Below, one piece after another: positions 8,934-19,025 of a stretch of DNA of 64,000 nucleotides. Every line of letters begins with the position of its first letter. The stretch's first letter is position 1. The notes under the pieces are model-generated. The model was not told where the DNA came from. It worked only from the letters and a program-made list of their open reading frames with translations, and did not search any database. Both the position numbers and the translations under genes were made by a program. Source of the DNA: Thalassolituus oleivorans MIL-1 (GTDB lineage: Bacteria; Pseudomonadota; Gammaproteobacteria; Pseudomonadales; Oceanobacteraceae); assembly GCF_000355675.1 (NCBI RefSeq), contig NC_020888.1, forward strand, positions 3,740,001 through 3,804,000. The letters run 5' to 3'.

Positions 8934-10093
8934 GCCTGATCTCCTTCGGCTTCTTTCATCGCGGCTTGTTGCTTGTTCTGCGCATGCTTATCTTTTAATT
9001 GGGCCCATAAGCCGACTACGCCTTTTGGCAGATAGAGGGTTGTCAATACAAACAGACCACCCAGCAGGAACAACCAAAGTTCAGCAAAAGCACCAGTGAA
9101 ATAGGTTTTTGCATAGTTAACTAAAATGGCGCCAATAACGGCACCAAAAAGCGTACCCCGTCCGCCGACCGCAACCCAAATAATCATCTCAATCGAGTTA
9201 ATTGGAGCAAATTCACCTGGGTTAATAATGCCGACTTGCGGAACATATAAAGCACCTGCGATACCCGCCAACATGGCAGACACGACAAATACAAATAACT
9301 TATAGTGCTCAACGCGATACCCTAAAAAACGCGCTCGCGATTCACTGTCGCGAATAGCCACCAACACGCGTCCCAGCTTAGAAGTAACGATAAAGCGGCT
9401 AATTAAATAGCCAAGAATCAAGGCTATGCCAGAGGCAAAAAATAGCGCAGCTCGAGTTGTATCTTGTTGCAGGTCATAACCGAGAATGTCTTTAAAATCG
9501 GTAAGACCGTTATTACCGCCAAAGCCCATGTCGTTGCGGAAAAAGGCGAGCAATAACGCGTAGGTTAATGCCTGAGTGATAATTGAAAGATATACGCCGG
9601 TCACCCGTGAACGGAACGCCAGCGCACCGAATACAAACGCCAACACACCTGGTACAACCAGCACCATTAACATGGCAAACCAAAACTGGTCAAAACCCTG
9701 CCAATACCACGGCAATTCAGTCCAGTTTAAGAACACCATAAAATCTGGTAATTCAGGATTTGAATACACACCACGATCACCGATCTGACGCATTAAATAC
9801 ATGCCCATGGCATAACCGCCCAGTGCGAAAAAGGCGCCATGTCCTAGGCTTAGTATTCCGCAATAGCCCCAGATAAGATCGACTGCTACCGCCAATAAGG
9901 CATAGCAAAGATACTTACCGAGAAGTGTCATCGCATAAGTCGACACATGAAAGAAAGAGCCTTCAGGTAGAAGTAAATTACTCAAAGGAATCACTATCGA
10001 CATTGCCAGCAATACGCTTAATAAATAGCGCCCAGCTTTATCATTCATCAATAGGGTCGCCAGCGGACCCAATTTTACGGTTTGATTCGTCAT
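8930..10093 (-). CDS. urtC: Urea ABC transporter permease UrtC, 387 aa
   Basis: LivM-type inner-membrane permease. It has about 8-10 hydrophobic helices, the family stretch DLIWGYCGILSLGHGAFFALGGYAMGMYL near residue 70-100 and the loop RARFLGYRVEHYKLF that contacts the ATPase. A hydrophilic 30-residue tail (KDKHAQNKQQAAMKEAEGDQ) ends the protein. It is 18 bp from urtB and overlaps urtD. Confidence 0.95.
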   Translation of the reverse strand: MTNQTVKLGPLATLLMNDKAGRYLLSVLLAMSIVIPLSNLLLPEGSFFHVSTYAMTLLGKYLCYALLAVAVDLIWGYCGILSLGHGAFFALGGYAMGMYLMRQIGDRGVYSNPELPDFMVFLNWTELPWYWQGFDQFWFAMLMVLVVPGVLAFVFGALAFRSRVTGVYLSIITQALTYALLLAFFRNDMGFGGNNGLTDFKDILGYDLQQDTTRAALFFASGIALILGYLISRFIVTSKLGRVLVAIRDSESRARFLGYRVEHYKLFVFVVSAMLAGIAGALYVPQVGIINPGEFAPINSIEMIIWVAVGGRGTLFGAVIGAILVNYAKTYFTGAFAELWLFLLGGLFVLTTLYLPKGVVGLWAQLKDKHAQNKQQAAMKEAEGDQA

Positions 10094-16265: not shown

Positions 16266-19025
16266 TTACTTATCTTCGTAACGCTGGTGCTTGAAGAACA
16301 CTCCAGAGTCACCAAACTGAGAAGCAGTAAAGTTAGAATCCATTACTAACTCACCTACTTTCACAGCACTGGCGCGACGTTCGTCAGCATAACGTTGTGA
16401 TGTTCTGCTCCAAATAGACGTTTTAATCTCTTTATCAGTAGCATAGACATCATACAACTTAGTACCTTCTGGCAAGCTCATAAGATCAGCACGGAAATCA
16501 TGCTCATCGCTAGAGAATAAGCCAGCCACTTCGGCACTTGGTACGAAGTACACTTGAGTTGGAGACTTAGGTGCTGCAACCGCAGAACCGTCAGAGTTAA
16601 CGCCGGCCATTGCATCAACCATTACTAACGTAGGCTTAGACGATACTAATGAGAACAAGGTGGTTGTGGCTAGAGTAATGTTCGACTCAACACGTACATA
16701 CTGAGATAGCTCATTAGCGAAGAAGTTGTAGTTATCTTCTTGACCAGACAAGGTATACAACGCAGATACGTTTTCTGATGGCTTACCATCGATAAACGTC
16801 TTCCACGCAAATCCTGGAGCAAAACCACGATCCGCTGGATCACCGGTTACAGATAAACGTAACAGTCCACATTCGTTACCTTTAAACACACCGGTATAAG
16901 GGTGGTTAGACGTTGCATTGAACGCGACCTTAGCCATAACACCGTGTGGGTGAATTGGCTTGGTATGACCAACAGGCGCTACGTCACCAACATAGTTTAC
17001 TTTGTCCCAAAGCACGCCATCGATTAAGCCGCCAATATCGATTGGTGGAATCGCTGGCAGTTCGCCTTCATCGTATTGAGTGCGCACGGCACCGTTAGTC
17101 CAAAGAAGATCTTGCTTAGTACATGCATCCCACGATTCATAGTTCTCAGGAAGATTTAGGCCCCAAGGTTTGAACGCGTTTTCAACACCCGTCAAAGACA
17201 CAGCCAACTCTGGGTTATGACGATTCAATACGTCAACCATAGTCGTGTTTTCAACCCAATCGTAACCTTCTTGGGTATACATTTCTGGAGTGTAATCCGA
17301 CGTTAGGAAACGGTCAGTAATGATGCGACGTGACGCATTCATGATGAAGATTTGAAATGCTGTCTCACCGAAAGCAAAGCCTTCAGGACGAACAGTCTCA
17401 CCTAACATCCCCACTAACACATCAATCTGTTCAACATCATCGTTATATACGCGACGGAGGTTCGCAACCGTTTCTGCATCATCAGTTAAGTCTTCAAACT
17501 TAGTGATTGGCTTCAAATTAATTTGACGACGGAACTCGTTATAACGCGGCACACCACGCTCACGGTCACGCAGAATATCAATGGTCGCAATGTCCATTTT
17601 ACCAACAACCGGCAAATCCAAATTACGCAGGAATTCAGGGAAGTTATTCAGTGTTAGTGAACCTGGGTTTGTAATACCGAACGAGTACCAAAGACGATCG
17701 ATACCTTGCTCATCAAGAATTGTTTCCGCATCGCCATCACGCGTGTCTACGACAGGAATCGACTCACGAACAATGTTTGAGCCAATGTCATACACATCGA
17801 TATTGTCGCGCATTAGAGGGTGCATACGGTAAACCGCCACAAACTCTTCGGTCAGAGTGAACGGCACACCAGCATTATCCGAATTACGAGCACCGGCCAA
17901 ACCAGTAACAGCCCACTCCAAAGCGGTACCATCATTAAGTGATTGTTCTAGATTTGAATCAACACCTAAAATAGTACGAACCCAAGAATCCGTTTTCGCC
18001 AAGTCTTCTGCTAGTTTCTCAAACTCGCCAGCATACTTATCACGCTCAGCCGTGTTGCCCACAAGGCCCCACCAGTTAGCGTACATAGCGCGTTCAGTTA
18101 CTGGGTTGGCGATGATTGCTGGAGTCCATTCAACAGTATGTATTTTAGCCATCAATGCCGAGTTAACTAAACGTGCTTTATCGTACAACCACTGATCATC
18201 TTTATCAGGATTGTTAGACGCTAGCATTTGCGCAATAGAGTTATGCTCTTGCACAAACAACTGGTGCAACATGCTTAGGCCAACCCACCAGTTGTCATTG
18301 AAACCAGTGACCGGGATGCCAGAGAAGAATTCTGTTGGTAAAGAACCATCGGAGTTAACCGTTAAACGACCGCCTTCGAATTCACGAATGCTATTCGATG
18401 TTGCCAAATCGCTACCGTAAATTTGCGAACCATCCCACCAGTGGGTATTCACGTTACGATAAGCTAACGGTAGGCCTTCTTCGTCGGCTGTGCGAGAAGT
18501 ATCGGCTTGAGTACGACGTACTGACATTACGCCAGGCCCCATCGCATCGTTTTCTGGTAGCTCTACCAAGATTGGATCATCCGCAGTATTTTCACCGTGG
18601 CTGAACCAGTCGTGGGTCATGAATTGAATCCATGCACCAGCAATAAAGTTAACGGATGTAGCGGGCTTAAAGTCATCGCCACGCGCCATTAAAGTGTTAC
18701 TAACTTCACGCGGGTTTGGCGTTAGCAACATACCAGATTCTTGTTCGGCGTATACCGCTTCAAGCTCTACGTTACGACCAAAGCGGCGATGCACAGAACC
18801 TTCAGAAGGATTTTCAAGATTGTTACAAGTACCATCTTCAGTACGAGCGCCCATGCTGCGTTCATCACAGCTCACTTCGGCGTTGTACTGCTCCCATTTT
18901 TCAAAATCGAATAGATTATTCTCAAAAAGCTCTTGGCGTTCCGCAGCTAAGGTTAACAACCCCGCGGTGATACCGAGCGTCCCGTATTTCACCAATGCTG
19001 GCCAGGTTACCCAGATACTACTCAT
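16266..19025 (-). CDS. Haem dioxygenase/peroxidase (alpha-DOX/cyclooxygenase type) with catalase-like C-terminal domain, 919 aa
   Basis: Residues about 50-640 are an animal-haem-peroxidase fold: RTEDGTCNNLENP (61-73), distal histidine His138 in FMTHDWFSH, NTHWWDGSQIYG (193-204), LHQLFVQEHNSIA (253-265) and proximal His402 in VYRMHPL. Tyr399, three before the proximal His, matches the catalytic Tyr of alpha-dioxygenase and cyclooxygenase, suggesting fatty-acid oxygenation rather than simple peroxidation. From about 640, HPHGVMAKVAF (692-702), TGVFKGNECGLLRLS (711-725), PGFAWKTFIDG (737-747) and NFFANELSQY (767-776) recall the catalase/allene-oxide-synthase superfamily. A catalase-type RxxxY haem ligand is not obvious. 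No clear signal peptide; a hydrophobic stretch lies at 9-28. AGGA precedes the ATG, and its leader contains two short inverted repeats (19055-19068, 19091-19102). Confidence 0.8.
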   Translation of the reverse strand: MSSIWVTWPALVKYGTLGITAGLLTLAAERQELFENNLFDFEKWEQYNAEVSCDERSMGARTEDGTCNNLENPSEGSVHRRFGRNVELEAVYAEQESGMLLTPNPREVSNTLMARGDDFKPATSVNFIAGAWIQFMTHDWFSHGENTADDPILVELPENDAMGPGVMSVRRTQADTSRTADEEGLPLAYRNVNTHWWDGSQIYGSDLATSNSIREFEGGRLTVNSDGSLPTEFFSGIPVTGFNDNWWVGLSMLHQLFVQEHNSIAQMLASNNPDKDDQWLYDKARLVNSALMAKIHTVEWTPAIIANPVTERAMYANWWGLVGNTAERDKYAGEFEKLAEDLAKTDSWVRTILGVDSNLEQSLNDGTALEWAVTGLAGARNSDNAGVPFTLTEEFVAVYRMHPLMRDNIDVYDIGSNIVRESIPVVDTRDGDAETILDEQGIDRLWYSFGITNPGSLTLNNFPEFLRNLDLPVVGKMDIATIDILRDRERGVPRYNEFRRQINLKPITKFEDLTDDAETVANLRRVYNDDVEQIDVLVGMLGETVRPEGFAFGETAFQIFIMNASRRIITDRFLTSDYTPEMYTQEGYDWVENTTMVDVLNRHNPELAVSLTGVENAFKPWGLNLPENYESWDACTKQDLLWTNGAVRTQYDEGELPAIPPIDIGGLIDGVLWDKVNYVGDVAPVGHTKPIHPHGVMAKVAFNATSNHPYTGVFKGNECGLLRLSVTGDPADRGFAPGFAWKTFIDGKPSENVSALYTLSGQEDNYNFFANELSQYVRVESNITLATTTLFSLVSSKPTLVMVDAMAGVNSDGSAVAAPKSPTQVYFVPSAEVAGLFSSDEHDFRADLMSLPEGTKLYDVYATDKEIKTSIWSRTSQRYADERRASAVKVGELVMDSNFTASQFGDSGVFFKHQRYEDK

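Follow-up and report, generated by a model that had tools for sequence, protein, structure and literature searches.

A gene in a 64,000-nucleotide stretch of Thalassolituus oleivorans MIL-1 (contig NC_020888.1, positions 3,740,001 to 3,804,000; hereafter the window) raises the question of what is gained by joining a heme-dependent fatty-acid dioxygenase to a second, catalase-like domain in one polypeptide. The open reading frame (ORF) given in the initial annotation of the locus is genuine: it lies on the minus strand, begins with ATG and encodes 919 amino acids, the opposite (plus) strand across positions 16266-19025 is stop-rich when translated, and the MIL-1 genome holds a single copy. The answer developed here is that the first half is, by its sequence, an alpha-dioxygenase (alpha-DOX), and that the second, its partner, very probably works together with it. 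Positions are those of the window:

16266..19025, minus strand: fused gene, 919 amino acids, alpha-DOX plus catalase-like barrel (ORF with ATG start; conserved fused architecture)
17202..18845, minus strand: heme alpha-DOX domain (PF03098), residues 61-608 (Pfam, sequence and fold matches in the PDB, invariant residues)
16269..17162, minus strand: partner domain, residues 622-919, predicted catalase-like barrel without the proximal Tyr helix (models, fold and profile matches; no Pfam or NCBIfam family)

The first half is an alpha-dioxygenase

The N-terminal half matches PF03098 with an E-value of 7.1e-110 over residues 61-608. In a sequence search of the PDB, the top three positions are taken by the plant fatty-acid alpha-dioxygenases 4kvj, 4kvl and 4hhr (E 5e-107 to 4e-100); the next match, 8s6c, follows at 5e-27, with cyclooxygenases (COX) and other peroxidases far behind. 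The top folds are 4kvl, 4kvj and 4hhs. The key residues that had been placed in the motifs THDWFSH (His138) and VYRMHPL (Tyr399 and His402) are found at those positions:

18612..18614, minus strand: His138, distal heme His (alignment)
17829..17831, minus strand: Tyr399, catalytic Tyr (alignment)
17820..17822, minus strand: His402, proximal heme His (alignment)

Together with H296, T301 and R566, these residues are invariant in all 56 aligned fused rows, and the same six occur in 15 of 15 diverse rows, including those from Calothrix, Cellulomonas and Halobacteriovorax. H296, T301 and R566 align with 4kvj; in the plant structures these residues bind the carboxylate. Because of the PDB sequence and fold rankings and the six invariant active-site residues, the first half is assigned on sequence grounds to the alpha-DOX enzymes and not to the linoleate- or cyclooxygenase-type enzymes, which upholds the earlier reading of a heme fatty-acid dioxygenase and makes it more specific. 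A pair of cysteines, Cys53 and Cys67, is likewise conserved in 56 of 56 fused rows.

An alpha-DOX-like protein of Calothrix, P0006, is 45% identical to the alpha-DOX half. The enzyme type is most familiar from plants. Alpha-DOX activity of bacteria has already been published (PMC8720084), and the characterized alpha-DOX CalDOX of C. parietina uses C10-C14 acids (PMC8720084). CalDOX (accession MZ522724) may be the same protein as P0006.

The fusion is widespread and probably arose once

Loci were collected with six peptide patterns, four in the dioxygenase half and two in the partner half, and the best 80 of 83 stretches were retained, a procedure that favors close, full-length relatives. Within this set, both halves are encoded by one gene at 73 of 77 loci, a few of them interrupted by contig ends or frame breaks, in genera that include Thalassolituus, Oleispira, Alcanivorax, Marinobacter, Pseudomonas and others; Thalassolituus records at 74-75% identity are among the nearest named relatives. 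The remaining four loci comprise two from Halobacteriovorax, where the halves are separate genes (adjacent in L105, about 1.1 kb apart in L106), and two with alpha-DOX alone (L103, Pseudobacteriovorax; L104, Cellulomonas). Across 55 genomes, MIL-1 included, the full-length gene is present in 17, and one more carries it as two contig pieces. Among 390 genomes of the order there are 25 partner-profile matches, 23 of which are frames of at least 921 amino acids that also hold the alpha-DOX part; the other two are a genome with only a distant member (G1007) and one with a weak fragment (G750), and one of the 23 (G850) has an additional distant member. In an alpha-DOX tree of 31 rows the ten fused rows form a single clade with support of 100/100, and the fusion therefore probably arose once. 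The 89 pattern matches among viral contigs include no relative, and phage records gave no match.

The two parts are often linked where they are separate genes

Similar associations are seen where the two parts are not fused. In a sample of 290 Bdellovibrionota genomes (partner matches at E 1e-3, alpha-DOX matches at E 1e-40), the partner was found in 59, alpha-DOX in 33, both in 31 and alpha-DOX only in 2. With a threshold of 220 bits, which was chosen after the scores were known, the partner is present in 33 genomes, 31 of them in common with alpha-DOX; as the genomes are related, Fisher values on such counts are not true probabilities. Forty stretches were read, 34 of which have a partner scoring above 150 bits; these are mostly the best-scoring ones, with low scorers under-sampled and some contigs ending near the gene. 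An alpha-DOX gene lies within 1.3 kb of the standalone partner in 23 of the 34. When L105 and a Calothrix locus are added, 17 of the 25 pairs are divergent, 7 are on the same strand and 1 is convergent. The 11 unpaired stretches come either from genomes with alpha-DOX elsewhere (G567, G680, G740, G559, G484 and G600) or from alpha-DOX-free genomes (G609, G742, G719, G639 and G607). Since the parts are so often separate neighboring genes in other bacteria, alpha-DOX and partner very probably work together, and the earlier suggestion that the two halves belong together is borne out by fusion (73/77), proximity (23/34) and co-occurrence (31/33).

Hydrophobic N-termini are seen in the fused form and in the split form of Bdellovibrionota. 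In the fused protein, this segment is a conserved helix:

18915..19016, minus strand: residues 4-37, hydrophobic helix at the N-terminus that may anchor the protein in a membrane or direct its export (model helix, low predicted local distance difference test score, pLDDT)

W5, V6, W8, P9, K13, G15, G18 and R30 of this helix are invariant in the 56 fused rows, across which N-terminal hydrophobicity is seen. Export signals were judged by eye and by hydrophobicity. A lipobox pattern is present in 18 of 25 paired alpha-DOX proteins, near-duplicates counted, and by eye a suitable Cys occurs in three further ones (L177, L184 and L186); the standalone partners also have hydrophobic N-termini.

The cyanobacterial pair resides on plasmid pCAL6303.01 of Calothrix sp. 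PCC 6303, cyanobacterial coverage consisting of plasmid records. The order of genes is an AraC-type regulator, the alpha-DOX P0006 (annotated as a peroxidase family protein), a small ORF, a transposase and the partner P0004 (CAL6303_RS27745), which has P0006 about 1.5 kb upstream and is followed by genes for a GMC oxidoreductase and a patatin-like phospholipase.

Other genes recur in these neighborhoods. A metallo-beta-lactamase-fold gene recurs in 17 of the 36 loci surveyed for neighbors (Pfam-checked in two). A lipoprotein-like family (LSGTYLGVADYK type) is frequent beside the pair, for example at L105:11954-13159, L172:5413-6486 and L174:5550-6608, and the one member checked has no Pfam match. 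Genes of the Mpo1-like type (PF06127, a 2-hydroxypalmitate dioxygenase family) occur near the pair in five Bdellovibrionota stretches:

L187:11321-11773, Mpo1-like gene (Pfam)
L188:7287-7745, Mpo1-like gene (Pfam)
L189:8005-8445, Mpo1-like gene (similarity)
L192:6041-6466, Mpo1-like gene (Pfam)
L195:3748-4191, Mpo1-like gene (Pfam)

By family name only, these neighbors hint at a 2-hydroxy acid product. A tie between the partner and Mpo1-like genes in Pseudomonadales was considered and dropped, because 35 of 55 relatives have such genes whether or not they carry the fusion.

The partner resembles a catalase barrel without its proximal helix

The initial annotation had described the C-terminal part as catalase-like, to be checked by structure prediction and by profile searches with the halves apart. 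Such searches identify the first half as alpha-DOX and give no convincing family for the second: residues 622-919 have no convincing match in Pfam, NCBIfam or the PDB, either as a single sequence or as a profile, and the catalase family PF00199 does not match. The standalone relatives P0002 (from Halobacteriovorax), P0004 and P0005 are likewise without a Pfam or NCBIfam family, P0002 having been compared with Pfam as one row of an alignment. Weak Pfam matches of the partner profile (best E 0.067) were taken as chance, as was a PDB profile match to 6,7-dimethyl-8-ribityllumazine/riboflavin synthase (E 0.0058), a non-catalase-barrel protein, over 87 profile positions. The motifs HPHGV, TGVFKG, LLRLS, PGFAWKTFIDG and NFFAN do occur in the order that had been claimed, within residues 692-771.

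The likeness emerges at the level of fold. An AlphaFold2 model of the partner, built from 42 related rows, has a pLDDT of 89.8 and a predicted template modeling score (pTM) of 0.90, and partner models place strands and helices in the order of four strands, a helical insert and four strands; the strand order of the catalase barrel is four, helices, four. A Foldseek search of 350,542 PDB chains gives 3e4y (E 1e-4) and 3e4w (E 3.5e-4) as its two best matches, with probability 1.00, and the next match at E 0.06. Both entries belong to MAP-2744c, a heme-holding protein of 33 kDa from Mycobacterium avium that is related to catalases. When the partner profile is compared with 3e4w and L222, an SrpA-like sequence, the alignment is collinear from end to end, through the distal HxxG, RxS, GxAxK, DG and the last strand with FF. 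Its score is 29.2, as against 23.7 for the best of 200 column shuffles (200 valid, zero failures) and 13.0 for the reversed profile. Given no convincing sequence match, the catalase likeness draws on the fold match and this weak collinear alignment, and shared descent of the partner with the catalase-related barrel is likely, not proven. A catalase-like barrel is thus supported as the probable fold.

The residues kept and lost were compared in an alignment of 66 fused and standalone partner rows, 65 of them distinct, in which the following positions stand out:

16950..16952, minus strand: His692, matching the distal His of catalase (HxxG), in 66/66 rows
16851..16859, minus strand: Arg723-x-Ser725, equivalent of the catalase RxS, each in 66/66 rows
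16287..16289, minus strand: His913 of the C-terminal FFKHQ, which might serve as an alternative ligand or in the active site, in 65/66 rows

The invariant residues are K637, W642, H692, R723, S725, K742, S750, F769, R845, S902 and D906; N752 is found in 64 of 66 rows, its register relative to the catalase distal Asn being unsure. The chain runs just 4 to 15 residues (median 8) past the F911 column of the last strand, and the proximal R-x-x-x-Y helix of catalase and allene oxide synthase (AOS) is absent from the 66 partner tails. The pattern itself appears in three of them, each time from a C-terminal ...RHxRY, and hence not as the proximal helix. MAP-2744c, collinear with the partner through HxxG, RxS, GxAxK and the terminal strands, differs in carrying a proximal R-T-L-V-Y after its last strand. 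Because the chain stops before the proximal heme-Tyr helix, a second heme domain, as first annotated, is not supported by the sequence.

A likeness to AOS had also been proposed. A Thr before the distal His sets AOS apart, and allene oxide formation needs a double bond adjacent to the hydroperoxide group; saturated acids yield 2-hydroperoxides that have no such bond. In the partner, the preceding residue is Ile (32 rows), Leu (31), Met (2) or Val (1), and Thr in none of the 66; in coral AOS it is Thr66 (PMC5617202). For both reasons an AOS-like heme domain is, judging from sequence, unlikely.

In 48 rows Cys635 and Cys719 occur together, in 18 neither is there, and no row has one of them alone. 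Their joint presence and absence suggests a disulfide, which in turn would place the domain in an oxidizing compartment.

In some catalase-like proteins of relatives (L223, L225, L226 and L227), Met apparently replaces the proximal Tyr of R-x-x-x-Y. No PF00199 catalase (E up to 1) was found in the MIL-1 genome or in eight same-genus relatives examined. A distant family of 426-465 amino acids, with signal-like N-termini by eye (L191:6809-8089, L207:6472-7869, L208:6133-7431, L209:5715-7088 and L210:6122-7480), aligns along the partner domain (hhalign E 1.3e-31) and has a last strand of the FVQHT/FFxH type near the C-terminus; no alpha-DOX is found in its five stretches.

A proposed alpha-oxidation enzyme and its alternatives

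On the preferred reading, the whole protein would be an envelope-located enzyme of fatty-acid alpha-oxidation. A tyrosyl radical at Tyr399 would allow the heme domain to oxygenate a free fatty acid at C2 with O2, yielding the (R)-2-hydroperoxy acid. The catalase-type beta-barrel would have retained the distal pocket of His692, Arg723 and Ser725 and lost the axial heme Tyr helix; it would take over the unstable 2-hydroperoxide and steer its fate to the 2-hydroxy acid or to the Cn-1 aldehyde. Stated so as to cover heme-free catalysis as well as heme and binding variants, this proposal seems to us probable. We infer the substrate, the location of the fused form, the contact between the domains and the effect of the barrel on the hydroperoxide; behind the proposal stand the alpha-DOX residues, the one fusion event, the split neighbors, the co-occurrence, the signal-like and lipobox N-termini in Bdellovibrionota and the missing proximal motif. 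Alpha-DOX 2-hydroperoxides give the Cn-1 aldehyde and partly the 2-hydroxy acid, with decarboxylation regarded as spontaneous (PMC9305512, PMC8720084), and it is possible that the barrel transforms the hydroperoxide. More tentatively, at somewhat less than even chances, residues 622-919 may define a new, widespread family in which a catalase barrel minus its axial ligand acts on fatty-acid 2-hydroperoxides, either with no heme of its own or with one that is unusually held. It would then be a dedicated second enzyme of alpha-oxidation, encoded within the fused gene in gammaproteobacteria, oil degraders among them, and by a gene of its own in Bdellovibrionota and a cyanobacterium.

Several observations weigh against the preferred reading. 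The genomes behind L103, L104 and L019 have no partner match, and two of the 33 Bdellovibrionota genomes with alpha-DOX also lack one, so that alpha-DOX can do without the partner. Conversely, 28 of the 59 Bdellovibrionota genomes with a partner match lack alpha-DOX at E 1e-40, and a partner relative is encoded on two plasmids of Pseudomonas veronii, where the 16.8 kb read contain no alpha-DOX; part of the partner family therefore does something else, and the lower-scoring partner branch shows no alpha-DOX link in the stretches read. Congruence between the trees of the two parts is modest (r 0.43 over 22 pairs; maximum of 2000 permutations 0.36), and the Calothrix pair has neither an export signal nor the Cys pair. 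On the structural side, the full-length model is middling (pLDDT 72.4, pTM 0.77), and structure prediction, while it puts the catalase-related 3e4y/3e4w first, does so at a template modeling score of only 0.38 and a root mean square deviation of 10.6. In addition, nine true catalases score 22.0 against the partner profile (E 0.092), a value reached by 8 of 200 shuffles and surpassed by the reversed profile (26.9).

How the barrel acts divides the remaining alternatives. It could be non-catalytic, a lipid-binding or chaperone-like domain that brings the fatty acid, takes the product or shields the tyrosyl-radical enzyme from peroxide; the absent proximal heme helix, the disulfide-like Cys pair and the barrel fold itself are all in keeping with such a role, which is nevertheless on the doubtful side, because the His, Arg and Ser of the former active site are retained in 66 of 66 rows, exceeding what a scaffold needs. 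The same invariant residues, along with His913 in 65 of 66, would be expected of a two-heme bifunctional enzyme whose barrel binds heme through another ligand (e.g., His913) and serves as a hydroperoxide lyase, peroxidase or isomerase. The nearest fold is that of a catalase-related protein, and there is a precedent in Nostoc, where a heme dioxygenase is accompanied by a catalase-related lyase (PMC13049297). However, the proximal R-x-x-x-Y is absent and the chain stops where the wrapping loop would start. To our knowledge, moreover, a swap of the catalase axial Tyr for His has not been described, and we regard two hemes as unlikely. That the fusion has no function at all, unrelated domains having been joined by chance and retained through descent, would fit a single clade of fused rows and one event, but it leaves the neighboring genes in Bdellovibrionota and a cyanobacterium and the 31 of 33 co-occurrence without explanation, and seems very improbable.

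Neighbors of the fused gene

Upstream of the fused gene, within 800 nucleotides, lies a LuxR-family ATPase regulator at 49 of 72 fused loci, on the same strand in 43 (Pfam on three members, one of which has a sub-threshold MalT-type TPR match). Type II secretion genes for GspC, GspD and GspE flank 21 of the 72, all in Pseudomonas or Atopomonas (Pfam on members of L040 and L046). In 17 of these (including L040, L046 and L047), gspD and gspE lie on either side of the fused gene, which usually follows directly on the LuxR-family regulator; in the other four (L036, L037, L044 and L087), the gsp cluster is beside it. A LAL-type regulator of P. alcaligenes, OrfV, is mentioned in connection with work on the Xcp machinery and lipase (PMC4589675). 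OrfV may be the regulator found beside the fused gene. The adjacent P. alcaligenes orfX could be the fused gene. The arrangement may point to a connection with secreted lipases, which release fatty acids. In the window itself, no LuxR-family ATPase regulator and no GspC or GspD gene was seen between positions 10000 and 26000; its neighbors there encode an exonuclease-like protein (judged by eye, without a Pfam match), an MshE-type ATPase and an allophanate hydrolase, along with urea ABC transport-like genes (by eye).

Relation to known systems

The plant enzymes AtDOX and OsDOX, the cyanobacterial CalDOX, LepDOX and CsDOX share with the first half the family, the fold and the six heme, Tyr and carboxylate-site residues. 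Solved plant alpha-DOX chains have 621-652 residues, to which the fused protein adds the hydrophobic N-terminal helix, Cys53/Cys67 and a 298-residue domain. In PMC8720084, C-terminal extensions were trimmed from the alignment, and the main text contains neither the word "catalase" nor the word "fusion".

The closest parallel is in Nostoc punctiforme, whose linoleate 10S-dioxygenase acts with a catalase-related 10S-hydroperoxide lyase (Brash 2014, via PMC13049297). There, too, a bacterial COX-family dioxygenase has a catalase-related partner (the catalase descent of the present partner being likely, not proven), but the genes are separate, oxygenation is at 10S and lyase activity of the partner has been demonstrated. 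Coral AOS-lipoxygenase (LOX) and hydroperoxide lyase-LOX proteins and cyanobacterial catalase-LOX proteins join a fatty-acid dioxygenase to a catalase-type domain (PMC5617202, PMC11719350); in these the dioxygenase is a lipoxygenase, and the heme of the coral domain is bound through Tyr353 (PMC5617202). Fungal dioxygenase-P450 fusions combine a heme dioxygenase with a hydroperoxide-transforming domain, as proposed here, but that domain is a P450 (PMC13049297). No description of an alpha-DOX/catalase fusion was found in searches of open-licence papers. The Nostoc lyase, for its part, reportedly contains heme.

The pairing of a COX-family dioxygenase with a catalase-related protein is therefore already known, as are catalase-LOX fusions; new, within the literature searched, are the occurrence of an alpha-DOX in such a pairing, the broadly conserved fusion of the two, and a partner family that lacks the axial ligand. 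Alpha-DOX enzymes have been studied for the production of fatty aldehydes. Because a partner is fused to alpha-DOX or encoded beside it, the unstable 2-hydroperoxide is probably not simply left to decay, and a dedicated partner would control the split between the Cn-1 aldehyde and the 2-hydroxy acid. A catalase-type fold minus its proximal ligand would, in addition, let one ask what the distal pocket does alone.

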